Positions 1,688 through 62,060 of a DNA stretch of 64,000 bases are shown here, piece by piece; within the stretch, counting starts at the first letter, position 1; each line of letters begins with the position of its first letter. Source of the stretch: Chlamydoabsidia padenii. Lineage: Eukaryota; Mucoromycota; Mucoromycetes; Mucorales; Cunninghamellaceae. The notes under the pieces are model-generated. The model was given only the letters and a program-made list of their open reading frames with translations. It made no database searches and had not been told where the DNA came from. The translations under genes were made by a program, and so were the position numbers. The stretch covers positions 248,001 through 312,000 of the forward strand of contig JAIWND010000010.1 in assembly GCA_025330725.1 (NCBI GenBank), written 5' to 3'.

Positions 1688-2335
1688 TCTTCAGTTCCTG
1701 TATTATACAAGAATAGAGGAAGCAGACAAGTATTGAGGTATATGACACTGTTTACGGTTCACCTTTTAATTGTTGTATAATGAGTTAACATACTTTCACC
1801 CCAAAGTAGCGAGTTGTATCATACTATAATTACCTCTTTTTAAAAGTTATTGCAAAGTCAACGAGAGAGTTTTTATAGTAATGTGTGTGGGGGTATATGT
1901 AAAAAGAGGATAGAGGATAGAGAGACAAGAAAGTAAAAGGATGGAAAAAGAGCGAGTTGGCCCCTTTAATCTTTTTTACTGGACGGAGAATGAAAAAGGG
2001 GGTACATGAGAAAAGGGTACATAATAAAGCAAAAGCTCACTTTTATTGTTTGTTCATCTCCACCACATCATCCTACCCTTTATTTTTATTTTTTTCGAGG
2101 AGTGTCATTTCTTTAGGCTGCCTCTCCTCCTCCCCCCCCCCAAAAAAAAGAAAAGAATCCTCGTCATTATACTGTTTTCAAGTTTGATCAACATCCCTAA
2201 AAGGGATTCACTAATTTGAATTCCCGCTCTACTGACTCGCGATTCTTTTTTTTTTTTTTTGTTGGCGCTTTTGATTTCCCTCTTTCTCTCTTTATATCCT
2301 TCTCTCCTCCTCCCCCCCCCTTCCAACACACGACC

Positions 2336-5300
2336 ATGGATGAATCACTTTACGACGAATTCGGAAACTATCTTGGTCCAGATATTGAAGACGATGACGA
2401 AGTTGACTACGAACAAGAGCATATGGATCAAGACGAATCGGACAGGGACATGGTGTACGATCAAGAAGACGAGGATAAAGAAATGGAACAGGAAAACGCA
2501 CTGATACGGGTTGATGGTAATATAAATCGTGTGTGCCTTGAAGCAACTTGTGCTATTCTCAACACATTGTCACTCATTTTTTTTTTTTTTTTTTTTTTTT
2601 TCTGTATTGTAGATATTCCTGCCAATCAAATCGTTTTGCATGAAGACAAAAAATATTATCCCTCTGCTGAAGAAGTCTATGGTGCTGACGTGGAAACTAT
2701 GGTCCAAGAAGAAGATACTCAACCTTTATCGGAACCTATTATCAAGCCTGTCCAAGTACGCAAATTCATTGTGTCTGAAAAGAACTTGCCCGAAACTCGC
2801 TACAGTAAAGAGTAAGTCCTTATTGGTTGATTAAAAAAGACCAAGGAATACTAATGTATCTTATACTAATGTATTTTACTATTGGTAGGTTTTTGATGGA
2901 TTTGATGAATTTTCCTGAATTAACACGAAACGTTGCTATTGTCGGTCATCTTCATCACGGTAAAACTTCATTTATGGATATGTTGATATCAGAAACACAT
3001 AACATACCAATCAACGTTGATCAACCGGTAAGGGGAAAATATACATAGTAAAACAGTGACTAACTACTAAAATGACTATTATTATGAATAGGAACGATAC
3101 ACCGACACTCATATATTGGAACGAGAACGTGGGATTAGTATCAAAAGTATGCCAATGACTATGGTGATGCAGGACATCAACGAAAAGTCCTATCTGCTAA
3201 ATATGATTGATACACCTGGTAAAGTATAATAATAAATAGTATAATCATTTTACTAACAACTCGAACCTCTTTATATATTTCTAGGTCATACTGATTTTAT
3301 TGATGAAGTAGTAGCTGCTACTCGATTGGCCGATGGTGTTGTACTCGTAGTGGATGTAGTGGAAGGTGCAATGGTCAATACGGAAAAGATTATCAAGCAA
3401 TGTGTCCATGATGGTCTGGCTATTACCTTAGTCGTCAATAAAGTAGATCGCCTGATCCTGGAATTAAAGTTACCTCCTAATGATGCATACTTTAAACTGC
3501 GACATACAATTGAAGAAGTGAACAATGTGATCAAGTAAGTATCAAGATCAAAATACAATATAGTTGAAGAGATAATAACTGAATCCATTTATGTATATGG
3601 ATTTTTTTTTTAGGAACACACCTGGCGGGGAAAATATCCGACTCTCACCTGAATTGGGAAATGTCTGCTTCGCCTCGAGTCAAACAGGATGGTGCTTCAA
3701 CTTGAAATCATTTGCTAGACTCTATGCTGATTCTTATGGTAAGCTCAATCATCAACAACTTGAACAAAACCACAACTAAATTACATATATATATATATGT
3801 AGATGACCAAGTCGATTATAAGCAATTTGCTCAACGTCTCTGGGGGAACATCTACTACAATGCAGAAAACGGTACATTCCATCGGAAAACTCAAGGAATC
3901 AACAGCAAGCGCACCTTTGTCCACTTTATTCTCGAACCACTATACAAACTCTACTCACAGGTAATAATTGAAGAAAAGTAATTATACTTTAACTGACTAA
4001 CTTTTGTGTGTATCTAATTGGAATTTAGGTTATTGGTGAAGATCAAAAGGAACTCAAACGAACAATGCGATCATTGGGAATAACTTTGAAGGAAAAGGAG
4101 TTTGGACTGAATGTGAAACCTCTATTACGATTGGTCCTGGCTCAATTCTTTGGTCCTCCTTGTGGATTCGTTGATACTGTGGTCAAACACATTCCATCGC
4201 CTATTGATAATGCAGCTCATAAAGTTGAACAAGTTTATTCTGGACCTTTAGATGATGTTGCTGCCAAAGCTATGCGTACTTGTGATCCTGATGGACCTTT
4301 GATGATTTACATTACTAAACTATACAACAATGAAGATGCCACGGACTTTGATGCCTTTGGTCGTGTACTCAGTGGAACTGTAAAGTCTGGTCAAATGGTG
4401 CGTGTCCTCGGTGAAGGTTATTCCATTGATGATGAAGAAGACATGATGGCCCAAAGGGTGACTAACACATGGATATATGAATCAAGGTAAGATGATCGGG
4501 ATTATTATGAAAAAAAAAAAAAAAGTTGATTCTATGCATGATTCTCACACTTTTTTCTTCTTCTTTCTAGATACCGTATGTCAGTTGATGGGGTTCCTCC
4601 TGGTGGATGGGTTTTACTAGGTGGGGTGGATAACTCGATTACTAAAACAGCAACCATCGTGGATCACAAATCAAAGCACGTCAATCATATCTTCCGACCA
4701 TTACGATTCCCAACAGCTGCTGCTTTAAAGGTGGCCATTGAACCCATGAACCCATCCGAACTACCAAAAATGCTGGATGGCCTCCGAAAAATCAACAAGA
4801 GCTACTCTATTGTCAAGACCAAGGTGGAAGAATCTGGTGAACATATTATCTTGGGTACTGGTGAAATGTATTTGGATTCTGTCCTCCATGACTTGCGTCG
4901 CATGTATGCCGAAGTGGAACTCAAGGTGGCTGATCCTGTGGTGAGGTTCTGTGAAACTGTGGTGGAAACCTCTGCTCTCAAATGTTTTGCCGAAACACCC
5001 AACAAAAAGTAAGAATGACTAATGATGTGTATCCTAAATAAACGAATGCACTGACTTTTTTGACTTTTGGCTTTTGGCTCTTATAGGAATAAGCTCACTT
5101 TTATATCGGAACCACTCGAAAGAGGATTAGCAGAAGACATTGAAAATGGCAAAATCAACCTTCGTTGGCCGCCCAAGCAACTTGGTGGCTATTTGGAACA
5201 AAACTATGACTGGGATGTTCTTGCTGCACGATCAATATGGGCATTTGGACCGGACGAAATGGGACCCAATATACTGATGGACGACACCTTACCTTCAGAG

Positions 5301-6122
5301 GTCGACAAAAAGTTATTATATTCTGTAAAGGACTCGATTCGACAAGGCTTCCAATGGGGTACCCGTGAAGGACCACTATGCGATGAACGTAAGTAACAAA
5401 ATGACAACAAACCAAGAGTAGATCTAATACTTTTATGAACAATTAGCCATTCGTGGGGTGAAATTCAAGATCATTGATGCGGTATTAGCCAACGAACCTA
5501 TTCACCGAGGTGGGGGTCAAATCATTCCAACATCCCGTCGGGTTTGCTACTCTTCATTTTTAACTGCGACACCTCGACTAATGGAACCAATGAACTATGT
5601 GGAAATACAAGCGCCGGCCGATTGTGTTGAATCAGTTTATGCAGTACTACAACGACGACGGGGACATGTAACTCAAGATATTCCCAAGGCAGGCTCACCA
5701 TTATATACTATCAAGGCATTCATTCCATTGATTGATTCTTGTGGATTTGAAACTGATCTCCGGACACATACCCAAGGTCAAGCATTTTGCCAACAACTAT
5801 TCGATCATTGGCAGATTATACCGGGTGATCCTTTGGACTCTTCCATTGTTTTACGACCTTTGGAAACTAGCTCTGCCCAACATCTTGCCCGTGACTTTAT
5901 GGTTAAGACCAGAAGACGGAAGGTAAAGAAGAAGAAGAAGAAAAAAAAAAAAAAAGAGAGAGAGGAGGAGGGGTGGGAAGAGTTTTCAATCCACTAATCT
6001 TATCTTTAAATTATCATTAGGGTCTCTCGGAGGATGTCAGTATCAATAAATACTTTGATGATCCTATGTTGATGGCACTGACACAAAGTGATATTCTAGC
6101 TAGTGGAATGTCAACCGATTAG
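2336..6122 (+). CDS. snu114: U5 snRNP GTPase Snu114 / EFTUD2
   Basis: EF-2-like GTPase of the U5 snRNP and U4/U6.U5 tri-snRNP that controls spliceosome activation and disassembly in the nucleus. Twelve exons: 2336-2516, 2613-2811, 2889-3027, 3092-3218, 3285-3534, 3614-3738, 3803-3960, 4029-4486, 4571-5008, 5087-5388, 5447-5922, 6021-6122; 2955 nt, 984 aa, close to the human protein. The first ~60 residues are strongly acidic (Asp/Glu runs), the hallmark that separates Snu114 from EF-2. P-loop GHLHHGKT, switch-2 region with DTPGHTDF, and NKVD follow, then domains II-V of the EF-2 fold. There is no diphthamide-bearing loop of true EF-2. Intron 1 holds a T tract of about 25 nt. A TTTGAATTCCCG motif lies 109 bp upstream of the ATG. 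Confidence 0.95.
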
Positions 6123-6504: not shown

Positions 6505-7203
6505 TTACAAGGTGGGGGACGAAAAGATAGCAGTGACAGTGGTTGGTACAACAAGGACGGTGGTAGTAAATGGATGCATGGCGGAAATGGGCACAACAGC
6601 ATTGACGGTGGCAGGACGGATGGAGGAAGAATTTAATGTATTGGTGACAGTAACGGCGGGGGTCTGGCTCTCATGATGGTGACTAAAAGCTTTGCCTAGG
6701 CCGATAAGTATAAATGTCAATGCAATTAAAAGCCCGACAATGATCATCAAAGCTGCCATGATCCATCGTTTGGCTCGTTTTTTAGGAGATGCGGTGGCAG
6801 ACGAAGAGTAAGAGTCTAATGAAGTGGCGGAAGGAGTTGATTCAAATCTAGGTAAGGGTGCCGACACAACAGAACGGGGAGGATAATACGTCGAATCATT
6901 GGATGAAAAGGGAATAGGTATGGAAGTCGGCGTTTCAATATTTGCATGAGAGTCGTACAAACCTTTTGCATGACATTCAAGAGGTTGTTGAAGATCATTA
7001 TAATCGTACGGTTGCTTTTGTTTTATGTCTGAATGAGAATATGATTGTGGATGCTTTTCGTTGAGCTCTTTTGCTTCCTCTTCATCATCATCGTCTTTTT
7101 CTGAAGGTTGGGATAGACTGGGAACAATCATGGTCGTAGAAGAAGAGGCAGCGGTGTTTCCCATGTGATGTGAATAAATATGATTGTTTTCATTAAAAGA
7201 CAT
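6505..7203 (-). CDS. single-pass membrane protein, function unknown
   Basis: Intronless reading frame of 232 aa starting at 7203; a motif of the CGGGATTTCAA family sits 141-157 bp upstream. I do not recognise a family. Visible parts: an N-terminal half rich in Ser, His, Asp and Glu (a DDDDEEE run near residue 40), a Ser/Ala-rich stretch, a basic stop-transfer block KKRAKR, then one hydrophobic segment of about 23 residues (around 147-170, MAALMIIVGLLIALTFILIG) and about 60 residues rich in Thr/Val/Ser. With basic residues on the N-terminal side, the long half should be cytosolic and the Thr-rich tail outside. The layout resembles small fungal wall-stress or adhesion-type membrane proteins, but no domain supports that. 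Confidence 0.65.
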   Translation of the reverse strand: MSFNENNHIYSHHMGNTAASSSTTMIVPSLSQPSEKDDDDEEEAKELNEKHPQSYSHSDIKQKQPYDYNDLQQPLECHAKGLYDSHANIETPTSIPIPFSSNDSTYYPPRSVVSAPLPRFESTPSATSLDSYSSSATASPKKRAKRWIMAALMIIVGLLIALTFILIGLGKAFSHHHESQTPAVTVTNTLNSSSIRPATVNAVVPISAMHPFTTTVLVVPTTVTAIFSSPTL

Positions 7204-7343: not shown

Positions 7344-7360
7344 GAAATTGAAATCCCGAC
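7344..7360 (+). promoter_or_regulatory. TTGAAATCCCGAC motif upstream of the membrane-protein gene
   Basis: One instance of the recurrent TTTSAAATCCCG element, 141 bp upstream of the start codon at 7203. See the finding on this motif. Confidence 0.4.
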
Positions 7361-7850: not shown

Positions 7851-8342
7851 TTAAAAAGTTGGCAAAGACCCTGATGATGATCGACATGATTTGATCTTGT
7901 TATCCAGTCTTCGCAAACTCCGATCCAAACTTCGTACTTGAGCCATGAGATCGTCATAGGCAAAACTCATCTCGCGATCCACCTTGTCCAAGTAATCTTC
8001 AGTTGCCACAATGGATGGATGGGCGGGGAAGGCGGTCTTTAGCGAGTTGAGCACAATATCGATGGCAGTCCATTCATTATGCAAGTGATCCAAGCTATCC
8101 TCTAACTGTCGGATGTAGTTGATTTGATAGTCAAGGTCGGGATTTGCCTTTTGATTATGAATGGACTCGGTTTCAGGCTCGCTTGATCCAGTGGGCATGA
8201 AAGCACTTGATGGTAAAGATGAATAATAATTCATTGGTATATAATACAACTGGTTGCAACTTTGACTATGAGCTTGGTGTCGATGTTGGTATATCACTGA
8301 TGGATCAAATATGGAAATGACGCTATTTGAATAACACTGCAT
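7851..8342 (-). CDS. small coiled-coil protein, function unknown
   Basis: Intronless frame of 163 aa from the Met at 8342. The first ~65 residues are low in structure (Tyr/Ser/His/Gln). Residues ~68-155 form an acidic then basic heptad-like helix region (DYQINYIRQLEDSLDHLHNE... then SLDRSLRRLDNKIKSC) that looks like a coiled coil. I know no family for it. A weak motif variant (GTCGGAGTTTAAAT) occurs about 105 bp upstream. Coding bias and length suggest a real gene; a missed 5' exon is possible. Confidence 0.5.
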   Translation of the reverse strand: MQCYSNSVISIFDPSVIYQHRHQAHSQSCNQLYYIPMNYYSSLPSSAFMPTGSSEPETESIHNQKANPDLDYQINYIRQLEDSLDHLHNEWTAIDIVLNSLKTAFPAHPSIVATEDYLDKVDREMSFAYDDLMAQVRSLDRSLRRLDNKIKSCRSSSGSLPTF

Positions 8343-9892
8343 AAAAAGATGACATCCAATGAGTTGCTTTTTTTTTTATTTTTTACCAGTTAACAAAGAC
8401 GTAGGATTACTTTGACAGGCTGACAAGTAAAAAAAGGACGCCCTGATGTCGGAGTTTAAATATACGATAAGCAAGAGAAAGGAAACAAGAGTATGGAAAA
8501 TGGCTCGAGTTTTTCATTTATACTATTGAAAAAGGGAGAGAAACATACGATACGCGTACATACGCAAAGATTGCCACCATCGAATTCCGTTTTTGTCTTT
8601 ATGCAGATTGAAGGGGGCACGATGCCGGTGTGATGTAGTGAATGAACTCTTTTTTTTCCCTTTTTGAGTTTAGATAGTAATCTTCCTTCCCCTTACATTT
8701 TTGACTTGTTGGGCACTCGTTTTTTATTTTCCAACTTTTTTTCTTTTGTCTATATAGTAATATGAAGGACCATCCTTCTCAGGGTTTATATGTTAGGTTT
8801 AAAAAAATAGCATCCCTAACTTTCAGGTACAAAATAATGACCAAGCGGGATTTGAATCAATTGCCATTACAGTCCGCTCACCCTTCCTTTGGCAAGTGAT
8901 ACAGTCTATTGGCGCATTTGACCCATAAGATGATTAAGAAAATGATGTGTCATTCATTTACTCCTTTGTTTTTTTTACGATCAGGGCTTTTGCTCCTTTA
9001 CCCTCCTTCAAAACACTCCCTCTTGCCATTCGTTCCAACCACAACTGATATGTATAATCATTGTTCATTTTTGTATCACCAAACTCTCTGATAGGGTACT
9101 ATCGATCAGGTAGAGTAATTTGCCTGTTGTGGCCAGATGGTTAGAACTAACTTTATTGAAAGGCATGGCAGAATTGATGCAAGATCAATCGTTTACAGAA
9201 AGTTACACACTATACTGAGCATGAATCGATCTACCTAGCATGAAATTTATTTCAACTCCGCCAAATCGAGATGATGTTGTGGCACCATCATGAACAATGA
9301 GTGTGTAAGAAAACCTTTCTATTATGGTGCACATAACAGTTTTTTTTTTTTTTTTTTTTTTTACATCACACCATGTGGATGCATGCATATGATTGTTACC
9401 GAGTGATTCCAATCCAATAAATGGGTATAATTGTATAGTGCACTCAGACTAAAATTGAATGACAGCATCTGCATACTGGCGCCATGACATTCAGGGCGGC
9501 CATATTTTTTTTCAATGTTTGCGAGCTACTTGATCCAGCACATAGTATTGGTCTGTGTGCCTATAATGAAAACTTGAGTTTTATGCAGCAGGTCCTGCAA
9601 GTTGGCCTTTTCAAGTAAAGTGTATGCTTCGACAGAAGACATGTAAGCGACACTGTGACCTTTTAGCCCAGCAAAAGAATAGTTTATAATGTTGTTTTAT
9701 AAGACTGAATACAGCATATTAAAGTTTTGTAGTTGATGTATTTCGCCAATCAAGAATCATGTACGGCATTAGAATTTCCTTTTCCGTATCGGAGTGTGAA
9801 AACCAAGGGACCAAAATAACCAGCCAATGATGCGGCGTTTTGAATTTTTTATTTGCTCACTTCTCTTTCCCTTCAAACTACACTGAACAATA
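8343..9892. other. intergenic region without recognisable gene
   Basis: About 1.5 kb between divergent genes. Short frames inside it are interrupted and unlike proteins. It holds one strong GCGGGATTTGAATC motif (8845-8858), a T tract of about 22 nt (9340-9361) and, near 9833, a weaker GCGGCGTTTTGAATTT about 60 bp before the PDI gene. I see no tRNA or transposon here. Confidence 0.4.
8845..8858 (+). promoter_or_regulatory. GCGGGATTTGAATC motif
   Basis: Exact GGGATTTGAA core of the recurrent element, in non-coding DNA about 500 bp upstream of the 7851-8342 gene and about 1 kb before the PDI gene. Confidence 0.35.
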
Positions 9893-12118
9893 ATGATACT
9901 CCTATTACCTTTATGGACTATCCTATGTTTTATAACGCAGATGGCGTTTGCAGATTCTGTTGAAATGGACAAGGAAATGTTTGACTCTATGACAAAAAAG
10001 GGGTTTTGGTAAGGCAAAGAACTTGATAAAAAACAGCGACCAAGATACTCGCTTGAAACTTGGTGATCTTTCTAACTTTCTCTCTCTCTCTTTTTTTTTA
10101 TTTATCTCTATTAGGTTTGTCGAACATTTCTCTCCATACTGTGGCCATTGTATTGCTTTTGGTAGGAAAAGGAAAAAAACAACAACAACAACTGGATAGT
10201 ACATCAAACTTGATGGGTGGTAACTAAGAGCTGTTTATTAATGTTTACTTGTAGCACCAACGTGGAAGGAACTGACTCTGGAGGAAGCTGGTCTGGCAAA
10301 GACCCACGACATACACTTTGGAACGATCGATTGCAGCGTAAAAGGTGATTTGTGCTCCGAACACGAAATTACTGGATTCCCCATGATGAAGCTCTATGTG
10401 GATGGTAAATTTGTCCATACTTATACTGGCTCACGCACCAAAGAAAGTATCAAGACCTTTTTGTTGGAACAACACGCAGCAGTAACTAAAACAAAGGCGA
10501 CAGAGAATCTTGGACTGGACAGCAACAACAGTTACGACGACGATAATAAAAGTGGAACCACCTTGAAGCCCAACCCCCATGGTCAATCAATCGACTTTGA
10601 CGGTGAATTACTGAAACAGGCCGTTGAACAGTCTGGACGTCCTTACTTTGTCAAGTTTTATGCCCCCTGGTGTCCTCATTGTCAACATCTTGCACCTATC
10701 TGGGAACAACTGGCACGAGAATTACAGGGTCAAATCGATGTGGCCGAAGTAAACTGCGATAAACACGGTGGTATGTCTTGATGGAAATATCTTCCCCTTC
10801 TTGTCTAGGATACTGTTGACTAATATGTTATCTTTGTTTATAGATGTTTGCCAACAAAATGGAATCACTGGTTACCCTGTTTTGAAACTGCAAGTGGATT
10901 GGATTCGTGTGCTCTGAACGGACAATTAACGTTTTTACTTCTTTTAGATTTGTTAATGGTCAAGTATTCGAATTCTCTGGTGATAGGTCATTAGCCAGTA
11001 TGATGGTATTTGCAAAGAAATTGGTTGGGTAAGGAAATAGAGAACAACATCATGTTATATTCTAATCATATATACTCTTTGATCTTTATACTTAGACCTG
11101 TTATCAAAAATGTCAATGAAGCTCAATTGAAAGCAGATTTGGACCCAAACGGTGTGGCCTTTATATACTTGCACAAGGATGATTCCGATGCTGCTGATGT
11201 AAGTAAAGGGAATTACATTAAACTGATTGATTGACATGTGTATTCATTTCACTCTAGTCGCTATTGGAAGGGGTTGGAAAACAATTTATCGATGGTTTGG
11301 TGTTTTACAAGAGTACTGATCAGAAACTGTTGCGACAATACGAACTCTCAATTAGGGATCTACCATTGGCAATGATTGTAAAAGATGGTCATCACTTTTT
11401 ATACCCTGGTCATCAATTCCAATCAACAGCTAATATGGAAGCCTTAACCAAGTGGATCCAGCTCGAAAAATACCCTGTGGTCTCTCAGATAAACCCAGTC
11501 AATGCTCAAGATATACTTCAAGGTGAACGGGTGGTGGTCTTGGGTATCTTGGCCAACAATGATCAAGTCTCTTCAAGTCAATTCCGAAAGTTGGCCGAAA
11601 AGGCAACAGATAGGGATCGTCGCTCTCGTGCCAAGGACGACCGTGCGATTTTTGCTCAATTGGATGCGGATACTTATCGGGATTTTGCTCGGAATGCTTA
11701 TGGAATACAGAAGAGCAATGTACCAGCCATCATCATCATCGACGGGAAGGTAAAAAGGAAACAAATAGACTTTACACTTGAACAGATCATCATCATCATC
11801 TTTTTTCTTTTTCTTTTTTAGAATGCTCAATACTTTAATCGGGGCACCAAACTCAACCTACTCGATCTTCAGCAACCACAAATCATTTTGCAAACTTTAG
11901 ATGATGTTGTTGCTAGAAAAATAAAGGGAATATCGACATTATCATTGCCAGCAAGATTAGGTCATCAATTGCAACAAGGTTATCATCAAGCACGGTCGCA
12001 CAGCTACTTGACTATGTTTATTATTGCTTCATTGGGTGTTTTGGTTTACAAGATGGTGTTAAACAAACGAAAACAAGTATCTAGGTCCACCATACTTCCA
12101 ACATCCCATCAAGATTAG
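9893..12118 (+). CDS. membrane-anchored protein disulfide isomerase with two thioredoxin domains (TMX3-like)
   Basis: ER oxidoreductase that would form or rearrange disulfides in secretory proteins. Eight exons: 9893-10008, 10115-10161, 10255-10770, 10844-10889, 10948-11028, 11096-11198, 11258-11749, 11822-12118; 1698 nt, 565 aa. A signal peptide (about 20 residues, MILLLPLWTILCF...) is followed by thioredoxin domain 1 with active site CGHC (about residues 48-51), a linker, domain 2 with WCPHC (about 193-196) and the cis-Pro in GYP, then a redox-inactive thioredoxin-like region. Near the C-terminus a hydrophobic segment (MFIIASLGVLVYKMV) followed by KRK makes it a type I membrane protein. No KDEL-type end is present, consistent with membrane anchoring. 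Intron 4 has a GC donor. Confidence 0.85.
10890..10947 (+). other. GC-AG intron 4 of the PDI gene
   Basis: GCAAGT after ...AAACT and TTTTAG before ATTTGTTAATGG gives the typical thioredoxin stretch LKLFVNGQ. No GT donor near it keeps the frame. It is the second GC-AG intron of the window, with the same GCAAGT donor. Confidence 0.85.
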
Positions 12119-12208: not shown

Positions 12209-12226
12209 TTTGTAAACCCCGACACC
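12209..12226 (+). promoter_or_regulatory. TTGTAAACCCCGAC motif upstream of GLE1
   Basis: Degenerate instance of the recurrent element, about 90 bp before the GLE1 start codon. Confidence 0.3.
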
Positions 12227-14750: not shown

Positions 14751-14765
14751 GCGGGATTTGAAAAT
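14751..14765 (+). promoter_or_regulatory. GCGGGATTTGAAAA motif
   Basis: Exact GGGATTTGAA core, immediately before the decayed gene that starts near 14765. Confidence 0.35.
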
Positions 14766-16017: not shown

Positions 16018-16262
16018 GGCGCACGGAAATTTGGAAGAGCACTACTCGCTCCACTGTCAACGGATGCTAATGATTAAAGTGGCGATGTGGACACTATGGT
16101 ATATTTCCAACATACTTTACCGCAAAAGCCAAGCACCAGCACCCTTGTGTCAGTCTGTCCAGGCTTGCGATGACTTTTACCTGTCATTTGTGAGAAAGAG
16201 AAAAAGTACGAAGAGGGAACCAAACTTCGTTTTCAAAACCCGCCCGCCCTTGATTCCCTACT
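16018..16262 (+). mobile_element. MITE copy A1 (TA-flanked, TIR GGCGCACGGAAAT)
   Basis: About 245 bp. Starts with GGCGCACGGAAATTTGG directly after TA and carries the family core (GATTAAAGTGGCGATGTGGA, then ...GACTTTTACCTGTC). Similar copies lie at 16263, 32851 and 55631. The right inverted repeat is replaced by a second, truncated unit. It has no transposase; apparent short frames in it are the repeat itself. Confidence 0.75.
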
Positions 16263-16453
16263 AAGCACTACTCGCTCAATTATTAACGGATGCTAATGAT
16301 TAAAGTGGCGATGTGGAAACTATGGTATATTTTCAACATACTTTACCGCAAAAGCCAAGCACCAACATCCTTATGTCGGACAGTCCAGATTTGTGATGAC
16401 TTCTTCCTGGTTTTTTTCTAGACGGAAGAGAACTTCATTTTCAAACGCCGAAC
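16263..16453 (+). mobile_element. MITE copy A2, truncated, in tandem with A1
   Basis: Starts in the middle of the left end (GCACTACTCGCTCAATTATT) and repeats the core with roughly 85-90 % identity by eye, ending near the CAAACGCCGAA block. The terminal inverted repeat is missing on both sides. Confidence 0.65.
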
Positions 16454-16709
16454 AAAGCGGAAGGAAGCAAACCTGATTTTAAATCTCGACAGTGATACCC
16501 AATTGATAACCCACCCCCCAATGCACATAAATTAACATATCTTTATAGATAGGGTGTCAATTTGTTTTGTTCAAGTCCAGGTTTAATAATTTTTATTTAT
16601 AAAGAAGACCACTATTTAGCCATCAAAACATCTTTAGTATTTTGGTTAATGACTAAAACACAAACATAAATAGTACAATAAAATAAGAATGAGAGGCCGC
16701 ATTGCTAAA

Positions 16710-21450: not shown

Positions 21451-21466
21451 CCGGGATTTCAAATTC
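21451..21466 (+). promoter_or_regulatory. CCGGGATTTCAAATTC motif
   Basis: Instance of the recurrent element in non-coding DNA between chs and the transporter gene. Confidence 0.35.
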
Positions 21467-22418: not shown

Positions 22419-22435
22419 GAATTTCAAATCCCGAT
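22419..22435 (+). promoter_or_regulatory. AATTTCAAATCCCGAT motif upstream of the transporter gene
   Basis: Exact TTCAAATCCC core, 76 bp before the ATG at 22511. Confidence 0.45.
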
Positions 22436-24970: not shown

Positions 24971-26285
24971 TCATACCGGTGATTGTTTTTTTGTTGAAGA
25001 TGACTTTTTACTCCGAGCTGCTGTATTATTCAAATCAAGAAAGAGGACGCCGGTGGTAGGCTGAGTATCTACAGGTGGAGATCGAGGTGGCGGCGGTGGT
25101 GGTGGAGAAGACGGAGGTGGTGACTCGGTAGGTGATGGTTGGATGCCCATTAGTTTGGCCCTTAGCTTATCCATCACAACACCATGGTCTAAAGGGGGAT
25201 GTGGTTCTTGATTCACATTCACCATCGGGGGTTGTACTGGTTTCTTTTTTTTCTTTGTGGCAGCCCATTTGAAAACATGTGTGCTCGTAGAGAATCCTGA
25301 TAGCTCGATGGGTGGTCGCTTTTGTTTGCCCTTTTTAGAATTGGTACCTGAATTTCGGGGTTCGAAATTTTATCTTTTGACAGGTCAAGGTTGGAAATGT
25401 AGTCAAAAAGAGTATGATCTACAGAAGACGTAGAGGAGGACGAGGAGGCAATCGATACTGATGAAGAGGGTGGAAAGTATTCTGTAGTTCTGTTTCTTAT
25501 ATTTGGGGAAAGAAACTCGTCAAAGTGGGGTGAAGAGGATACCCGTTGATTTGGAGAAGGCGAAGAAAAGGAATTTTTCGGGATTTGAAAATTGAAATCT
25601 TGGGAGGCAGATTGATCGGAATCATGAGGATGGTCAGTTACATATATAGACGGTGCCTCTTGTTCAGCCACCATCATTGATGAGGTGGGAGGTGAAAAAA
25701 GCAATTGATCGAGATTGATTGATCCATCATCAAAGTCGTATTGTTTCCTTGCCTGCAAGGAAGACTCGGGCATCATATATTGGTTGTGATATGCTAAGGT
25801 GGAAAAAAAGTCAGCTCCGTTTTTCAAATCCCGCCTTTTCTGTCTTTTTACCTGTAGAGGAAGAATGATGAAGTATAATCGGCCGTTTTTTTTCTATTGA
25901 CTTGTACTTTCTTTGTTGGTAATCATTCATGTTACAGCCAGCGAATTTGTACTTTAATCTTGCTTCTTCAGCTTGTCGGAGTTCCTCGGCCGTTTTCCTC
26001 TAAGAAGAAAAAGAAAGGGGTAAATTTCTTGATTGCATGAAAAAAGGGGGGCAGGTGGCTTACCCGATCTTCTTGAGCTTTTGCAGCCAAGACATGTTTC
26101 AGTAGATCAGTATCATGTTCATATGTGGATAAGATGTGGCTGACAGACAAGTGGGAACTATCCGCAGATGTGGGGACCAATGAAAAAGAAGCTGAGGAGT
26201 CGTCGTCGATCATGGTACTTTGCCAAGAATCAGAGGATGGCGCAGGTTGCTGAGAATGATGAGTGTTACTAGAGCCAAGAGTCAT
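24971..26285 (-). CDS. proline/serine-rich protein of unknown function
   Basis: Exons on the minus strand: 26285-26064 (SerThr-rich N-terminus with a short helix EHDTDLLKHVLAAKAQEDR), 25999-25852 (basic helix RKTAEELRQAEEARLKYKFAG), 25793-?, and a last exon ending at 24971. The Ser-rich third exon and the last exon are in different frames; the last reads KRPPIELSGFSTSTHVFKWA, then KKKKK and a proline run (SPPPPPPPRSPP). A 92-bp intron 25422-25331 (GTAGAT...AAAAAG) or a 212-bp intron starting at 25542 keeps the frame, but the acceptor context is poor, so an assembly indel or a broken gene is possible. With the 92-bp intron the product is 366 aa. I do not recognise a family. Intron 2 contains a TTTTCAAATCCCGCC motif. 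Confidence 0.5.
25821..25835 (+). promoter_or_regulatory. TTTTCAAATCCCGCC motif inside an intron
   Basis: Exact core of the recurrent element, in intron 2 of the 24971-26285 gene. Confidence 0.35.
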
Positions 26286-27448
26286 TCTTAAAAGAAAAGA
26301 AAAAAAAATAACGAAGGAACCAGGAAATGAAAAAAACAACCTTCGAGTGTACATAAAATCGCTCGGGGTCAAAAAAAAAACAAAAAGTTAAAAATATCCA
26401 CTCTTTACTTGACTAACCCTTGTCTATCTTTTCCATCGACTATTTAATAACCCGCTTGTTTATATTTTATCATCATCACGAAGTCAAACTTTGTTCCATC
26501 AAATGTCAAAGAGGGGGGGACACGCGATAGACTTTTGTTATCATGCAAGCTCGTATTTGAATCCCAATGAGGAAATATACTATGGATTATAAACAGTACT
26601 CGAGATAAAAATACCATCATGACTCTCTTTGTAGTTATTTTCGATGGTTATACGATGTAAATTGATCTGAAGGGACAAAAAGATTGATCTGAGAAGTATA
26701 AAAATTGACACATAAGAGTCCCATTCTTTGCCCGCCTCAGTAGTAACACAAAAAGGTTAAATCAACAGTAGTATGAAAATCTATTGTTAGCACTTCTTTT
26801 TCTTTCTGGTTTTTTATGGATACATTGATGTTGCCTAAAATATCTCACTTGTGGCTGATATCATTGCCATTCGGGTAATTACTCAGGGCGGACCCTAACT
26901 ACCAACCATACTATTTTTGGGTCCCCTGGTAAACTCAGTTGTTCCCGACTTGAAATGAATGTCACGAGTTGCAAATATAAAATGCTTACTCTTCTGCATA
27001 AATGTGAATTTGGTTTAGTAAACGTATATTGATTTACTAATTTCCCATTAATGGTTTATAGGTCCTTTTTTTGACATTGACATTCAAACACATCGAAATT
27101 AATGCAAGCTAAAAAATATTTTTAAATCCCGATTTTTAAATCCCGCTATCCCTGTTCCACTGTTGCGAACTTAATATAACCGATTCTCGATATCATGGTG
27201 TCATTTTCAATCTATTGAGTGGTGACAGCTACTACGCTATTTTATGATGCATTCATGACTTGAGTCATACCAACAAAGATCCACTAGTCAGCCATACTTG
27301 GTAAAGCACGTTCCTGGCGCCGCCATATTATACATATTGCTTTTCAAGACACCGCATTTAACATTATCATTGTCCAACTTTTTTTTATTTATCTTTTATC
27401 AATACAATTAAACAATCTAAACTATAATATCTATGGGTAATCCTTAAT
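26286..27448. other. intergenic region without recognisable gene
   Basis: About 1.2 kb between the proline-rich protein gene and the 3' end of the Phe-tRNA synthetase gene. It is AT-rich with many stops in all frames. The only structure I see is a direct duplication of the recurrent motif at 27119-27145. Confidence 0.4.
27119..27145 (+). promoter_or_regulatory. tandem pair of TTTTAAATCCCG motifs
   Basis: Two copies of TTTTTAAATCCCGMT-type sequence 14 bp apart in direct repeat, far (about 300 bp) downstream of the stop codon side of the synthetase gene. Confidence 0.35.
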
Positions 27449-29079: not shown

Positions 29080-29096
29080 AATTTGAATTCCCGATA
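29080..29096 (+). promoter_or_regulatory. AATTTGAATTCCCGATA motif in the FARS2/COG2 divergent promoter
   Basis: Instance of the recurrent element placed 72 bp from the FARS2 ATG and 92 bp from the COG2 ATG, so it could serve both. Confidence 0.4.
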
Positions 29097-32850: not shown

Positions 32851-33100
32851 GGTGCACGGAATTTTTGGTATTCGGCGTTTGAAAATGAAGTTCCCTTCCG
32901 TCAAGAAAAAATAAAATAATCATCATCGCAAAGGACAGGTAATCGTCATAGCCAGCCTGAACATACTGACACAGGGGTCTTGGGGATTGGCTTTTGTGGT
33001 AAATTATGTTGGAAATATGCCATAATATACACATCGCCACTTTAATCATTAGCATCCGTTACAAATAACCGAGGAGTGCTCTTCCAAAATTCCGTGCGCC
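32851..33100 (-). mobile_element. MITE copy B, complete, with terminal inverted repeats
   Basis: 250 bp. The right end, read inward, is GGCGCACGGAATTTTGG and the left end GGTGCACGGAATTTTTGG, so the inverted repeats match over about 16 bp. The right side is flanked by TA as expected for a Tc1/mariner-type insertion; the left flank is TG. The core matches copies A and C in inverted orientation. No coding capacity. Confidence 0.8.
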
Positions 33101-35460: not shown

Positions 35461-35475
35461 TCTTCAAATCCCGCC
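35461..35475 (+). promoter_or_regulatory. TCTTCAAATCCCGCC motif upstream of the MT-A70 gene
   Basis: Exact TTCAAATCCC core, 82 bp upstream of the start codon at 35379 and between that gene and the 3' end of the DUF3455 gene. Confidence 0.45.
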
Positions 35476-35623: not shown

Positions 35624-36413
35624 TTAAGCTACTCGGGTTTTTTCCACCAATGCATTCCACTCGGCCTCTTCTTTCTCCAGAGCCAGAATTTTTTCAGGGC
35701 CCGCATAAAGCATCATGTAGGCAGTGAAAGGACGGACCAAGACGGAACCTTTGACAGTACATGCAGTTTTATCAGGGTGAGCACCATCCAATGCATTCAA
35801 TCGTACGACATAATCCGCATGAGAGAAATATCCATCTGTGGAAGTCCAAGCGGTTCGTGTCAGGTGATCATCCAAGTTGACACCAGCATCACCTCGTTCA
35901 GTTCTGCCTTCTTCTTGAGAAGTGCCAGCCACAGGATGCCCAGTAGCGTACCAAGATCCATCAGGATAATAATAAGCGGTGGTGTAGAGTTCTTCTGGAT
36001 CAGACCTACATAAAAATAAAAATAAAAAGAGATAAGCTCGATACATAACTTCCCCTTAAAAATGCTTACATTTGCTGGGTTTTGTTGAGAGGGGCGGCGG
36101 TGATTTGGCCGATTTCAAATCCCGGAACGTCAAAAGGTGCCGTTCTCCCTTTGGTGGGGTAAAGGAAGGCTTGGGTTTGCACATTGTACCAACGCATGAA
36201 TCGTCTTTTTTCAGGATTACATTGATAGATACGGTTTCCTTTTGCATAGAAAACATTATACAGTTGTTGGTCTTTGGGTGGTGAAATGCTTTCTTTGACG
36301 TGATGTGCCGTAGGGATTTCCCCTTTTGCAAGTTCAGGTACAAAGTCCGCTTGACATGTCAAAAGGAGGGTAGATACAATAGCCACTAAAAATGTCTTGC
36401 AACCAAATACCAT
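35624..36413 (-). CDS. secreted DUF3455 protein
   Basis: Two exons on the minus strand, 36413-36070 and 36005-35624; 726 nt, 241 aa. A clear signal peptide (FLVAIVSTLLLTCQA, cleavage after about residue 22) is followed by a beta-rich DUF3455 domain: QLYNVFYAKGNRIYQCNP, RWYNVQTQAFLYPTKGR, YYYPDGSWYATGHPVAGT, AWTSTDGYFSHADYVVRLN and a C-terminal YMMLYAGPEK. The biochemical role of the family is unknown; members are common, secreted and often induced in fungi. Two cysteines (IYQCNP and TACTVKG) could form one disulfide. A truncated copy of exon 2 lies 2.4 kb away at 33108-33230. Confidence 0.8.
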
Positions 36414-38163: not shown

Positions 38164-38676
38164 AATGGGGTTGGCTTTTTAATTGTCAATCGGTATCAAT
38201 CGAGAATGGAATAAGAGGAAGAGAAGGTGGTCGAACTTTTTTTTTCTTTTTAACTTTTTGAGAGGTTGTATTTTCGAATCCCGCTAATTAAGTTTTCAAA
38301 GAAAGATAATTTTACCTTCGACATGCCAAAAAAAGGAAATGAAGAAGATGCTTAGATTAAACTCAACAAGAAAAGTAACTGTTATACCGATGTAAAAGAT
38401 ACTTCATTAAACTCAATACTCTGATTATGACCAAAGGTACTTCAATAGAGCAGAGTGACGATCATACATTTACACGGTGCTTTGGCGCCCTGATGTTCTC
38501 TTTTTATATTGAAGTAAGTAGCATTGGATGTTCTTTGTGATACCAAAGTTCATGCACTTTTCATCAAAAAGTAAAAGATGAGCTGTTACCATTACACTAA
38601 CCAAAAGAAAGAGATGACATCAAGCCAAATCCAATATTTCTAACTCCGATATCTGGGAATAAAAGGTAAAATGGAA
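38164..38676. other. intergenic region between acidic protein gene and tRNA-Phe
   Basis: Contains the promoter-side motif at 38271-38284 and an A-rich region. No gene seen. Confidence 0.4.
38271..38284 (+). promoter_or_regulatory. TTTTCGAATCCCGC motif
   Basis: Instance of the recurrent element 108 bp upstream of the acidic protein start codon. Confidence 0.35.
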
Positions 38677-44462: not shown

Positions 44463-44480
44463 GTCGGGATTTGAAAATAA
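44463..44480 (+). promoter_or_regulatory. GTCGGGATTTGAAAATAA motif
   Basis: Exact GGGATTTGAA core of the recurrent element, 210 bp downstream of tRNA-Leu, no start codon nearby. Confidence 0.35.
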
Positions 44481-52243: not shown

Positions 52244-52612
52244 TCACCCACCAAAGTCGATTTGCATAAACCACTGACAATAACCCATTTTACAGATGGA
52301 CAGTGGATATCTTTCGTCCAGATTACTGAGAGGACATGTTACCTGAAAGTGATACTTTATACCAAGTAAATGATGATCTGTAAAGAGTTGTAGGATGTAG
52401 TGAGCACGGAATTTGAAAATTCTCACCTGTCAAACTTACGGAGCTGAAAGTCTGTTTGACCTGACAAGCCACTTCCTGCGCATTGAAGGTGTAAGTTGAT
52501 CTCTTTGCATTGACTTACCCAAAAAACATATCTCATCGTCAAATGAACTCATACCTAGGCGCTGTCCAAGAAGTATATCCTCGGTATAAACTTTGACAGC
52601 CATCAAGACACC
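52244..52612 (-). pseudogene. possible decayed gene, minus strand
   Basis: From an ATG at 52603 the minus strand reads MAVKVYTEDILLGQRLG followed by a GT donor-like GTATGAG, or, read through, SSFDDEICFLG and GTAAGT. Several AG/GT pairs occur further down (RRKWLVRSN; TGAGAATTTTC) but no long frame forms. LLGQRL...DEICFLG resembles the start of CAP-Gly domains (tubulin-cofactor type); this is a weak impression. Confidence 0.2.
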
Positions 52613-52613
52613 C

Positions 52614-52617
<4 letters not shown>

Positions 52618-52658
<41 letters not shown>
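52618..52658 (+). repeat. poly-T run of about 41 nt
   Basis: Uninterrupted T run in intergenic DNA upstream of RPA135. Confidence 0.9.
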
Positions 52659-52659
<1 letters not shown>

Positions 52660-53150
52660 TTCCCACATCTCCATTCACTTTCCACGTTCTATTTCAAACG
52701 AATAGACTTCGTGTCAAAAAAGGGGTTATCGGCTTTCCCCATGTATGATCGCAGACTCTCATGCTCAAGTAAACTCCGCAAAATGCGTCCAAATCCGGTA
52801 ATTGATCACCCTCAAGAACTTGGAGACTCATTTCATCAAGAGTTTATCATCACTGAAGACTAGTCTTTTTTCTTTCGACTTTTTACAAAGAGTCCCAGTA
52901 TTCGGGAATCAATATGTTGCACTAAGAAGGTAATTTATCTTTTAAAAGTATGATTTGTGTAAGTGATCAGTATTTAAGATTGCCCATCTCTCCCTTGTTT
53001 TTTCTTAAACTAACGATCGAGAAGAGCTATATATATAAAAGGTAACCATTTGGTATTCATTAAAGAATGTTCTGTCGTGTTGACTCTTTGATATTAGTTC
53101 GTCCATCAAGGTACGGCGATTTGATTGGGTAAAAAAAAAGAACAGTGCGG

Positions 53151-53169
53151 GTAATTTCAAACCCCGACT
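53151..53169 (+). promoter_or_regulatory. AATTTCAAACCCCGACT motif
   Basis: Variant of the recurrent element, with a GCGGG 4 bp to its left, in intergenic DNA. Confidence 0.3.
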
Positions 53170-53473
53170 GCGGGACAACATGGCCCTCCCCTCTTAGTTG
53201 GGTGTCATATGGAGTGAAAGTGAACCAAGCGTGGTGTAATCGATCAAACACAGTTATCATCAACTAATCATTGTGTTCCCCCTTTCTTCCAAGTAAACTT
53301 TTTTTTAAATATATCCTCTAGATAAAAAAGGAGATAAAGAGAGATCAATTAAGCATGAATAGGAGGACACTCGTTCTTCCCGCACGACCGAAAAAAAAGC
53401 TCAGCTTTTATTGCTTATAGGTGAGATTGTCATGTGGTAGGGCTCCTGGTAATAAAAAAAGTTTACCATGTTA

Positions 53474-53491
53474 AAATTTAAAACCCGCCCG
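53474..53491 (+). promoter_or_regulatory. AAATTTAAAACCCGCCCG motif
   Basis: Variant of the recurrent element, about 530 bp upstream of the PAS-GATA gene. Confidence 0.3.
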
Positions 53492-53740
53492 ATCACTCTT
53501 CTACTGTCAATTCTGGTAAAACGAATGATCGGTTGTTTGTTTGCTTTCATCCTCTTATGCTTTTCCCCAATGGACCAGACCAAATGACCCGAGAATCTCC
53601 CAATGGTTTCAAAAAGAGGAGCTGTGACATGACCGAAAAGGACTCGAGTGGAAACACAAGAAGATTTAAGGTTTTTTTCCTTACTTGCTTCGGAATCGGA
53701 CCCTTGTTTATAGTGGCGATGATATTCTGTGTGAATGGTG

Positions 53741-53741
<1 letters not shown>

Positions 53742-53778
<37 letters not shown>
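53742..53778 (+). repeat. poly-T run of 37 nt
   Basis: Uninterrupted T run; a second of 38 nt follows at 53958-53995, ending 26 bp before the PAS-GATA start codon. Confidence 0.9.
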
Positions 53779-53780
<2 letters not shown>

Positions 53781-53954
53781 GCACAGCCCAAATCCTTCTC
53801 CTTCACTGACTCCTTTCTTCTCCCTCCGCTCCCCAATTTTAAAAGTTAAAGCTTTTCTTCTTCTTCTTCTTCTTCTTCTTCTCTTTCTTTCCTCCTTTTC
53901 TTCTTTCCACTTTGCCCTTTCTGTCAAACTACTTTTGCAAAAAAAGGTACATCG

Positions 53955-53998
<44 letters not shown>

Positions 53999-54020
53999 CA
54001 CTCACTTGTCCCATTGATAG

Positions 54021-55529
54021 ATGTCCTCTTGCTTTTGGGGATTGTTATCATCACTCGATTATGAGTTTCTATACCTACCCACATTGATCATGAACACCAC
54101 AGTTGATCATCATTCTATCAAGGATCTCTTATTGGGCCGACCTTTTATTGATCTGATCCATCCTGATGAACGACCCTTGGCCAAAAGCGATTTTGACAAA
54201 TTCACAGACTTGAATACATTGGCCGGGGCTGTCACACGGTAAAATAATAGTGATTTCTTCCTCCAGTGTGAGATCTGAACCTCTCTTGTGTTTTATTATG
54301 ATAGGTGCCGATTAAGGAAACTTGATTGCATTGCTAGTTATAACATTCATGACAGAGGAAATGAACTGGATTGGATTGTGGTGGATGTGATCATGTATAC
54401 CGCTGCTGAGAATATTGTTTTGGCCTTTTTTCATTGTGATCAAGGTATGGAAAAAGGAGATGGAAATTCCAACGAGATCGCGGGGTTTTAAAAACAAGAA
54501 ACACTATCAAGAATGGAAAAAAAAAAAGATGGCTGATTCCTTTGTTATTTATAGGATATCCTGCTTGCCCTCATGCATTATGTGATTATGAAAAGGAGAC
54601 GGAGATCAATGTAAGAACATACAAAAGTGATACCATCTTGATTATGAGAGCTGATTATCCACTCTTTTTTTTCATTTTCATAGGGAATAGCTTCTCTATC
54701 TCCGCTCTTTCAACGCTATCATGACAATTTATATACCAATCACCAAGAACAAACGATCGGCACGCTCCGTGCATTCCAATTATATAACAACGTTACACGG
54801 AATATTGTAATGAGTTGGCCCACCAAAGACCAACTTCCTACTCACTATGAAAATATTGTTGATGCTATACAAGATGATTTCTATCATGCTATTCAACATC
54901 AGCATGATCATCCCTCTTCACCACGATATGAACCTAATACTCCATGCACACATCATACCCGATCGACATCAAGCTTGATCTTAGAGGGACATGGGACCTT
55001 ACGTTTCGAAAAAATATTGATTCAATATGGTCAATGGACATTTGCTATATTCAAAATAATCTCTCCACCTACACAACCATCCTCTCCTGTAGATCATCCC
55101 TGTTATTCTAGGTATGTTCATTCATGCAAGAAGAATGAAAAAGAACAACCGGGATTTCAAACGTTTAAATATTGAAAACCCGACAACTCACCTTCCCCCT
55201 TTTTTTCAAAAAGAATCTCTAGTCCCTCTCCAACCCCCTCTTCAAATAGTTCTCCCGAAATGTCGAATAGTAAACATCGAATTTCCAAATCATGGCGAAT
55301 ACGACCCAATGAAAAGAAGCAATGCGAGAGTTGCCGCACGAGCCAGAGTCCTGAATGGCGACGAGGGCCAAGTGGTCATCGGACCTTATGCAATGCTTGT
55401 GGTTTACGGTACTCAAGATCATTGGCTCGTCAGGAACAAAGAGTGTCACCGATCGCCCAGTTTGAAGATCCCCGCACATCATCAACATACCCAGGACAAC
55501 AACGGCGCTTCTTCAACTTATATCCATAG
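54021..55529 (+). CDS. wc-2: PAS and GATA zinc-finger transcription factor (white collar 2-like)
   Basis: Putative nuclear regulator of the type that pairs with blue-light receptors. Five exons: 54021-54238, 54305-54444, 54555-54610, 54684-55111, 55214-55529; 1158 nt, 385 aa. Near the N-terminus a PAS fold is seen (SIKDLLLGRPFIDLIHPDE ... IVLAFFHCDQ, about residues 30-120). It lacks the LOV flavin-binding Cys motif, so it should not sense light itself. A PAS-like middle part (GHGTLRFEKILIQYGQWTFAIFK) follows, then a Ser/Pro linker, and the C-terminal GATA finger CESC-X18-CNAC with EWRRGPSGHRTLCNACGLRY (about residues 310-345) and a short basic tail. Mucorales carry several WC-2 paralogues; which one this is cannot be said. 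Intron 4 contains an inverted pair of the recurrent motif. Confidence 0.85.
55148..55184 (+). promoter_or_regulatory. inverted pair of the recurrent motif in intron 4 of the PAS-GATA gene
   Basis: CGGGATTTCAA and, 11 bp on, TTGAAAACCCG face each other (10 of 11 bp complementary). It is the only inverted pair I found. Confidence 0.4.
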
Positions 55530-55630: not shown

Positions 55631-55878
55631 ACAAAAGATTTTGGAAAGGGCTCTACTCGCTCCATTGTTAACCGATGCTATTGATTAAAGTGGCGATGTG
55701 GACATTATGTCATATTTCCAACATAAGTCACCGCAAAAGACAAGCTCCAAGACCCCTGTGTCGGTCAGTCCAGACTTGCGATGACTTTTACCTGTCCTTT
55801 GCGACGAAGATTATTTTATTTTTGCTAGACGGGAGGACACTTTATTTTCAAACGCCGATTGCCGAATTCCCGTGCGCC
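55631..55878 (+). mobile_element. MITE copy C
   Basis: About 248 bp. The right end reads GAATTCCCGTGCGCC followed by TA; the left end (AAAAGATTTTGGAAAGGGC) is degraded. The core GATTAAAGTGGCGATGTGGA and ...TTGCGATGACTTTTACCTG are shared with copies A and B. Confidence 0.75.
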
Positions 55879-57233: not shown

Positions 57234-57251
57234 GTCGGGTTTTGAAAATGA
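57234..57251 (+). promoter_or_regulatory. GTCGGGTTTTGAAAATGA motif in the pyrG/Bin3 divergent promoter
   Basis: Instance of the recurrent element in the only 149 bp between two divergent start codons (59 bp from one, 74 bp from the other). Confidence 0.4.
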
Positions 57252-60566: not shown

Positions 60567-61885
60567 ATGACTTGGAAAGAAGTAAAAGGCCAAGTTATTG
60601 TCTTTTTCGTCACCATAATGATTACCTTTATTGCTTACTCTTCACAAATCGGCATTTTGTGGTCCTTCCTTGGTGGGGCTACTTTACACACTGCTCTCAT
60701 TTTGATTCCCTTCAATGTATTTATCATCATGATTTACATCAACTATGCTTTGACTTGTTTAACAGACCCAGGCACTGTCCCTGAAAACTGGGTAAGTATC
60801 GCATAACCAAAACAACGAGAAACTCGTTTCTCACCCAAACCATTTTTTTTTTTTAAACAACATAGATACCTCAACAACAACATCAGCACTTGGAAGTCAA
60901 GAAATCCACCCACGCTCCTCGATTCTGTAAAACGTGCAACAACTATAAACCACCACGAAGTCACCACTGTAGTACTTGTAAAAGATGCGTGCTAAAGATG
61001 GATCATCATTGTCCTTGGATCAACAACTGTGTGGGATTTGCCAATTATTGTCACTTTATTCGCTTCTTGGTGTATGTGGAAATCAGCTCCATTTATCTTG
61101 TCACTCTGTTGGGCTGTCGATTGACGAACATTATGCAATATCAACAGCAATCCTTTGTATCCAGTACTGAATGGACCTTGCTGGGTATTAATCTCGCACT
61201 ATGTGGAGTGATCATCATTGGAGTGGCTATTCTTAGTGGCTATCATGTTTATTGCATTGCCACTAATACTACTACTATTGAAGGTTGGGAAAAGGGAAAA
61301 AGTCTTACACTAAAATCAATGGGGACGGTGCGTGATGTAAGTAGACTGATGATGATGATGATGATACTCATACTCATACTCTTTTTTTCTTTTTGTTCTT
61401 CTTCTTGGCTGTAGGTAATGTATCCTTATGATCAAGGTGTAATGAACAATATCAAGTTTGTACTCGGACGACAACCCTTGTTTTGGTTTTGGCCCCGTCA
61501 AATGGAGGGATCAGGGTTATCATTCCCCATCAACATTACTCACCTGCATACCAAAGGAAATACTGTGACGACGAGAACAACAACAAGTGATGATATGGAT
61601 AATGACGATAAACGATCTTCAGTGTATTCAACATGGACAACACATACTGATTATACTCAATATAATAATATGGCGGATGATCATGCTCGTGATAGTATGG
61701 CCATGGATAATATAACTCGAATTGAGCCAGTACATCAGCATCTATCAGTCTTACGATCTAAACCTTCGACAACGACACTTCATACACCGACAACTCCAGG
61801 TTCCATCATGACGTTTGCTTCTACTGCCTCGACCTTAGTGGATCCTAAATCAAGACGACCTAGTGATAGTAAAAGTTATTACTAA
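60567..61885 (+). CDS. pfa4: DHHC palmitoyltransferase, Pfa4-like
   Basis: Protein S-acyltransferase of the ER/Golgi; yeast Pfa4 palmitoylates the chitin synthase Chs3. Three exons: 60567-60791, 60866-61336, 61415-61885; 1167 nt, 388 aa. Two N-terminal membrane helices (about residues 8-65), DPGTVPENW, the cysteine-rich domain [19 protein letters not shown] and catalytic [16 protein letters not shown] (DHHC at 121-124), two more helices, the TTxE motif as [12 protein letters not shown], and [17 protein letters not shown], which is typical of Pfa4. The Ser/Thr-rich tail of ~90 residues is disordered. A chitin synthase gene is 40 kb away in this window, a possible client; that link is inference. 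Confidence 0.9.
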
Positions 61886-62042
61886 ATCCTTCTTTCAATA
61901 CCCCCTTGTTAATACTCTCTCCTATCCATGTACAATAGTTTTTACTTTTATTATTACTCTTTACTCTTTAATCTTTTATAATAAAACAGTCTACTTCTTC
62001 TTGACAGATATCGACATTGAAATGTAAAGCGGGCTTTACTCG

Positions 62043-62060
62043 GGCGGGTTTTGAAATCGG
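62043..62060 (+). promoter_or_regulatory. GGCGGGTTTTGAAATCGG motif upstream of the E3 ligase gene
   Basis: Instance of the recurrent element about 110-190 bp before the first recognisable coding exon. Confidence 0.4.

Follow-up and report, generated by a model that had tools for sequence, protein, structure and literature searches.

What marks the promoters in the genome of Chlamydoabsidia padenii, a fungus of the order Mucorales? This question is raised by a stretch of 64,000 nucleotides (assembly GCA_025330725.1, contig JAIWND010000010.1, positions 248,001 to 312,000 of the forward strand), which is called the window below, and in which copies of a short sequence around the 12-mer CGGGATTTGAAA recur in front of genes. 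The consensus of this sequence, hereafter the element, is KCGG(G/a)(A/t)TTT(G/a/c)AA(A/t)WT. It is a frequent, sequence-specific site in promoters, found in either orientation and also between divergent genes, which is the placement of general regulatory factor sites. Judging from sequence and position, we take it, with a probability of roughly 0.7, to be the site of a putative abundant, sequence-specific general regulatory factor and to act as a bidirectional promoter element.

The window is C2:248001-312000 of a 34.2-Mb assembly in 95 contigs, and this single genome was analysed. Besides genome-wide counts, the sequence read was 264 kb together with 13 extra loci of 3 kb. The extra loci were chosen for holding the 12-mer; they were used for the site matrix and excluded from the gene statistics. 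The matrix has 16 columns, was built from 116 sites and was applied with a cut-off score of 10. Because its training sites came from this sample, the site count is not independent of it, while the positions of sites relative to genes are. Genes were modelled ab initio from codon statistics and splice signals without consulting the motif, which gave 87 models, 78 of them with at least 100 codons. Sites that our array filter left outside the repeat arrays described below are called isolated.

Abundance and placement of the element

How far does the element exceed chance? The exact 12-mer has 2353 copies genome-wide (1163 + 1190), where about 4.7 are expected from base composition, and the pattern read backwards has none. 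The degenerate pattern CGGRWTTTVAAW has 7679 copies (3810 + 3869), against 50 for its reversed control. At score 10 the matrix finds 176 sites in the 264 kb and its reversed form 4; apart from simple repeats, the 12-mer is the top-ranked over-represented 12-mer in this sequence (26 copies, 0.02 expected). The initial annotation, made from the letters of the window, had reported at least seven copies of the 10-mer GGGATTTGAA besides one in the T arm of tRNA-Leu, well above chance, and a larger number of close variants. These counts are borne out. Besides the T arm there are eight copies, including one at 25580 that had been missed, and the positions first given were 2-4 bp low; the nine copies in all compare with 0.37 expected and at most 3 in 100 shuffles. 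With up to two mismatches, the 12-mer occurs 32 times in the window (9.6 expected, at most 20 in 100 shuffles), and matrix matches with score of at least 10 number 39, of which two overlap.

The letters around the core are constrained as well. Among 89 isolated pattern sites, G or T stands before CGG in 80, A or T follows the core in 80, and T comes next in 51. Copies with a single substitution relative to the 12-mer have A for the G after CGG (5 copies), T for the next A (15), or A, C or T for the middle G (8, 8 and 2). A search for companion k-mers near the sites gave only weak candidates, for example AATACGAC and CCAATTAA, without correction for multiple testing. Rfam at its gathering score found nothing in the window but two tRNAs, and no match with E up to 1 in four array-bearing stretches.

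Where does the element lie relative to genes? The density of isolated sites in the 264 kb is 13.3 per 10 kb in intergenic sequence, 5.6 in introns and 1.3 in coding sequence. An isolated site is present in 23 of 24 divergent gaps, 23 of 29 tandem gaps and 6 of 23 convergent gaps; for gaps shorter than 400 bp, the numbers are 7/7 for divergent and 0/10 for convergent ones. Counted by the simple pattern in gaps below 1.2 kb, 14 of 17 divergent gaps have a site versus 4 of 21 convergent gaps (Fisher p = 2e-4). In 45 of the 78 genes a site lies no more than 200 bp from the modelled ATG; with a limit of 500 bp the number grows to 59, and with 1 kb to 69. Sites at -200 to -40 have a median position of -108 from the modelled ATG (interquartile range -123 to -88), and a site at -125 to -70 is found for 31 genes, where random intergenic positions give a mean of 5.4 and a maximum of 14 in 1000 trials. 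Lack of enrichment upstream of genes had been set beforehand as the outcome that speaks against a promoter factor, and the enrichment is present. The site is on the strand of the gene in 23 of 45 cases; this is the free orientation claimed from the window, and not the single orientation of a TATA-type element. TATA boxes near the start are not commoner in genes with the site (8/45) than in those without (5/32).

Is any other feature tied to the site? In 42 of 45 promoters the best-scoring pyrimidine tract starts downstream of it, at a median of 36 bp (interquartile range 21-47). Measured from the site, pyrimidine content climbs from a level of about 0.5 to 0.86-0.88 at a distance of 50-70 bp; when the sequences are aligned on the ATG instead, the increase is less sharp and does not exceed 0.74. 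The median absolute deviation of the site-to-tract distance is 12 bp versus 30 when sites are shuffled among genes (none of 2000 shuffles was as tight), with a rank correlation of 0.73. The position of the tract is tied to the site and not to the ATG alone. Near the start, 41 of the 45 genes that have the site carry a run of 12 pyrimidines, as do 18 of the 32 genes that lack it (one gene was dropped at a sequence end). A test free of gene models, on 119 isolated sites, gave outward CT runs of at least 12 at 40-70 bp for 59 of the 238 sides; GA runs at this distance were present for 7. Bins between 100 and 250 bp hold 6-14 outward CT runs, and a minor second peak, with 25 runs, follows at 250-280 bp. 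At the 13 extra loci, CT runs at 40-70 bp occur on 14 of 64 sides versus 4 for GA, with CT common to about 130 bp (5 of 37 sites were dropped at locus ends).

The layout of divergent promoters is regular. All six divergent gaps of 149-196 bp have exactly one site at score 10, which lies near the middle, with 66-122 bp between it and either ATG. The least central of these sites is 24 bp off the middle of a 196-bp gap, or 0.245 of the half-gap, and the chance that six independent uniform positions are all that central is about 2e-4. Two sites are present in the gaps of 438 and 445 bp, with separations of 238 and 245 bp, and the distance from each site to the ATG on its side is 85-115 bp. Distances between pairs of sites show a similar scale: among 180 isolated sites no pair is 40-119 bp apart, and a peak of 17 pairs stands at 200-239 bp (6 and 4 in the neighbouring 40-bp bins). 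Pairs 190-260 bp apart number 18 in the 264 kb, with mixed orientations, where 7.6 are expected and the maximum in 500 trials is 16. The site of a general promoter factor, as first proposed from the window, is supported by the genome-wide excess, the concentration upstream of genes, the free orientation and the central position in compact divergent promoters.

Copies in the window and a dispersed repeat

The main copies in the window, with the arrays of the dispersed repeat, are as follows.

2215..2226, minus strand: variant CGGGAATTCAAA, 115 bp before the Snu114 ATG at 2336
7347..7358, minus strand: CGGGATTTCAAT, upstream of the gene 6505-7164, at -189 from its modelled start
8846..8857, plus strand: CGGGATTTGAAT, within the divergent gap 8198-9940
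12210..12221, minus strand: weak element (score 14.0), about 98 bp before the GLE1 ATG at 12314
14752..14763, plus strand: exact copy, at the upstream edge of the dispersed-repeat body 14743-15496
16029..16490, minus strand: dispersed tandem array with a unit of about 240 bp, element copies at 16231, 16439 and 16477
21452..21463, plus strand: CGGGATTTCAAA, 530 bp upstream of the modelled start of the gene 16710-20927 (chitin-synthase-like by eye)
22422..22433, minus strand: exact element, 131 bp before the modelled transporter start at 22559
25579..25590, plus strand: exact element, in a triplet at 25356, 25579 and 25822 with spacings of 223 and 243 bp
25822..25833, minus strand: exact element, 243 bp from the copy at 25579
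27120..27145, minus strand: two CGGGATTTAAAA elements, 14 bp apart
29082..29093, minus strand: sole, central element of the 179-bp divergent FARS2/COG2 promoter, at -79 and -100
32867..33087, plus strand: dispersed tandem array, element variant at 32873
35462..35473, minus strand: CGGGATTTGAAG, upstream of the MT-A70 gene, whose model is fused with its neighbour
36113..36124, minus strand: exact 12-mer, inside the predicted first coding exon of the DUF3455 gene, unlike most copies
38272..38283, minus strand: CGGGATTCGAAA, about 114 bp before the ATG of the acidic-protein gene (36967-38163)
44465..44476, plus strand: top-scoring element of the window (25.0), about 210 bp downstream of tRNA-Leu
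53155..53166, minus strand: CGGGGTTTGAAA, within the divergent gap 52529-54089
55639..55863, minus strand: dispersed tandem array, element variant at 55846
57236..57247, plus strand: sole, central element of the 149-bp divergent pyrG/Bin3 promoter, at -66 and -83
62045..62056, plus strand: CGGGTTTTGAAA, in the fused model 60618-63626, before its E3-ligase-like part (by eye)

The names GLE1, thioredoxin, MT-A70, DUF3455 and pyrG come from Pfam or protein searches; the remaining gene names were given by eye or by the initial annotation. The pyrG protein is 94% identical to that of Absidia cylindrospora and 75-85% identical to those of other named Mucorales among the matches listed, which makes the host an Absidia-like member of the Cunninghamellaceae. 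The stretch 38998-43788, judged by eye from reverse transcriptase and integrase-like segments, is presumably a Ty3/gypsy-like retroelement polyprotein.

The initial annotation had placed copies 60-145 bp upstream of a series of start codons. This stands for Snu114, GLE1, the transporter, FARS2/COG2, the acidic protein and pyrG/Bin3 at the distances given above, and the two copies central in divergent promoters (FARS2/COG2 and pyrG/Bin3) are likewise as described. The gene drawn at 6505-7203 is modelled from 7164, which puts its site at -189, and the copy at 36113 is not upstream of MT-A70 but within the predicted coding region of the DUF3455 gene. The set of window copies is also mixed: those at 14752, 16231, 16439, 16477, 32873 and 55846 belong to a dispersed repeat, and the flank of a site at 32801 resembles this repeat too.

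What is this repeat? It is a dispersed element made of tandem units of about 238-240 bp with one motif each. Arrays on contig C1 lie at 9432-9964, 26966-27498, 46007-46569, 62746-63804, 83771-84359, 156592-157437 and 177811-178373. Matches to the repeat unit number 35 in the sample and extra loci, and one unit has at least 196 matches genome-wide (40 of 473 first-look candidates were scored). When the unit is divided into 12-bp bins, the block with the motif is the most conserved (0.89), with other bins reaching 0.85-0.87. The units of an array nearly all point one way, with an exception at C1 157312-157437. After some arrays comes a body that is several hundred bases long and includes a short open frame; the window segment 14743-15496 is about 70% similar to C1 62030-62736, the body after one array, and has a single motif at its upstream edge. 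The three arrays of the window all lie between convergent gene models. The arrays resemble multiplied promoter units of a mobile element.

How many copies of the motif does the repeat account for? Its arrays hold 30 of the 176 matrix sites, and 30 of 108 pattern sites have flanks similar to sequence elsewhere in the sample, while the other 78 match nothing. Therefore the objection that the copies belong to a transposon covers one in six to about one in four sites. With the motif masked, a model of the repeat unit scores above 10 bits in none of 90 flanks away from arrays, in 13 of 17 near arrays and in none of 600 controls (one of the 108 sites was dropped at a locus end). The concern that the copies are ends of a dispersed element is thus justified for the sites in arrays and falls for the 90 sites away from them.

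As a separate observation, C1:32704-36842 is a long internal repeat with a period of about 276 bp in the large predicted gene 30791-39001.

Alternative explanations

Could the element be something other than a general regulatory factor site? One proposal is a core-promoter element read directly by a TFIID-like or TBP-like subunit, a substitute for TATA with no separate chromatin-opening factor. The constrained distance from site to tract fits this, and so does the finding that TATA boxes are not enriched near the starts of genes with the site. The use of either orientation, the sharing of one site by two divergent genes and the 220-bp spacing point instead to a chromatin factor, though they separate the two readings only in part, and we regard direct reading by such a subunit as unlikely. 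Another proposal is a site of the MuvB/DREAM type, in which CGGG is half of an E2F-type site and TTYRAA is the CHR. LIN54 is reported to read TTYRAA (PMC4974476), and a hybrid E2F/LIN54 motif is described as common to worms, flies and humans (PMC3093354). This hybrid (CDE/CHR) resembles many copies of the element, as both are promoter sequences in which TTYRAA comes after a CG-rich half. Outside arrays, noncoding sequence has CGGG and TTYRAA separated by one base 60 times and by two bases 14 times, against 0-3 times for each other spacing up to 13, and the E2F/DP domain has 6 genome matches over the cut-off (C7:409295, C56:775491, C19:83438, C67:231154, C1:2062540 and C8:577276). On the other side, the tesmin/CXC domain of LIN54 has no match in the genome by its Pfam model or by a stretch of human LIN54, and LIN9/DIRP has none either, in searches without a positive control, for which an empty result is not absence; the codon pattern for CLKxYC[DE]C[FY] with at most one mismatch also has none, again with no positive control. 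Variants without TTYRAA exist (CGGGATTTCAAT, 3 copies; CGGGAATTGAAA, 2 copies), T stands before CGG in 40 of 89 sites, a misfit to the E2F consensus GCGSSAAA as it is given in PMC4862756, and the targets reported for the hybrid motif are cell-cycle, development and germline genes (PMC3093354, PMC4974476). Such a site is quite improbable here.

It is very improbable that the copies at large are remnants of the motif-carrying repeat, whose share was counted above: most flanks are unmatched, the masked flanks away from arrays give no hit, and isolated pairs about 220 bp apart occur in all orientations, unlike array units. Least credible are extra-TFIIIC sites serving as chromatin boundaries, the alternative that the initial annotation had raised and disfavoured. 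The element shares the nine letters TTCAAATCC with the consensus of the RNA polymerase III B box, and one match of the 10-mer is the T arm of tRNA-Leu. On this strand, however, the B box needs CC after GGATTTGAA. All 39 exact copies have A or T at the second of these places, which follows AAA, and 7 of the 89 degenerate isolated sites have C there. The first of these places is the 12-mer's final A; with C in its stead, the sequence has 2 copies versus 26. The element also adds a C before GGG that the B box does not need, and the outer letters of the B box are missing from it. The full TFIIIC B box GGTTCRANTCC with its outer GG is present in none of the 39 exact copies. Also set aside were the 6mA motifs, which, as given in PMC11258239, differ from the element.

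Several points weigh against a general regulatory factor site. The sequence read is a small part of the 34.2 Mb. A check of three modelled proteins with Pfam showed two fusions of neighbours and one wrong start. As many as 43 of 146 isolated sites lie in predicted introns or coding sequence; some of these are model errors, and the copy at 36113 looks truly coding. Nine of the 78 genes are without an isolated site within 1 kb. Genes without the site often have a pyrimidine run, as counted above, and therefore a tract does not require the site. The divergent layout is not uniform: a single site is present in each of the gaps of 313, 418 and 506 bp, and the gap of 634 bp has none. Isolated sites prefer a spacing of about 220 bp under a null that ignores the clustering of promoters. 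The array filter is also imperfect: it counted the repeat copy at 14752 as isolated, and some other such sites lie outside arrays.

A probable general regulatory factor site in C. padenii

How might a general regulatory factor site of this kind work? The putative factor would bind the site and keep nucleosomes away from a stretch of DNA. The transcription machinery could then assemble next to the factor, on one or both sides, and transcription would start within or close to the pyrimidine tract, at a distance of 40-70 bp. A spacing of 220-240 bp would correspond to a nucleosome together with the footprints of two factors. The factor would thereby set the position of the promoter with no need for a TATA box.

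There is also the question of whether such an element is known from other systems. The sites of Reb1, Abf1, Rap1 and Cbf1 in yeast are, like the element, common in promoters. They differ in sequence, the Reb1 site being TTACCCG, and in C. padenii one long motif serves many genes and comes with an outward pyrimidine tract. In 12 yeasts, general regulatory factors were proposed to clear nucleosomes, their set being replaced between lineages, with motifs of single species (PMC2897762). The vertebrate CGCG element TCTCGCGAGA is reported from TATA-less promoters, is enriched in housekeeping genes and induces bidirectional transcription (PMC6192621); it is also a short promoter motif, but it is palindromic, lies in a CpG-island context and is unrelated in sequence. 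No promoter element of this form was found described for Mucorales in the open-access literature, a coverage that mostly leaves out subscription papers and preprints, and four 11-mers of the element, sought in print, gave no promoter motif among the matches listed, as far as their titles and the starts of their abstracts tell. The element probably works like a general regulatory factor site, and would be a new motif of that kind.

A wider scenario may be put forward, though only tentatively. The element may be the dominant promoter-defining element of an early-diverging fungal lineage. One factor, acting in either direction, would provide a ruler of about 40-70 bp to the start on both sides, and promoters would be built in steps of one nucleosome, with a single shared site where the gap is below 200 bp and, where it is about 440 bp, two sites separated by about 240 bp. 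It would replace TATA, and mobile elements would copy the 240-bp module as tandem promoter units.

If the element is a general regulatory factor site, it would help the annotation of promoters, the correction of start codons and the design of expression vectors in Mucorales. The clean geometry, one site for two genes at constrained distances, would make its use in two directions directly testable. It would also add another example of a fungal lineage built around a general regulatory factor of its own.

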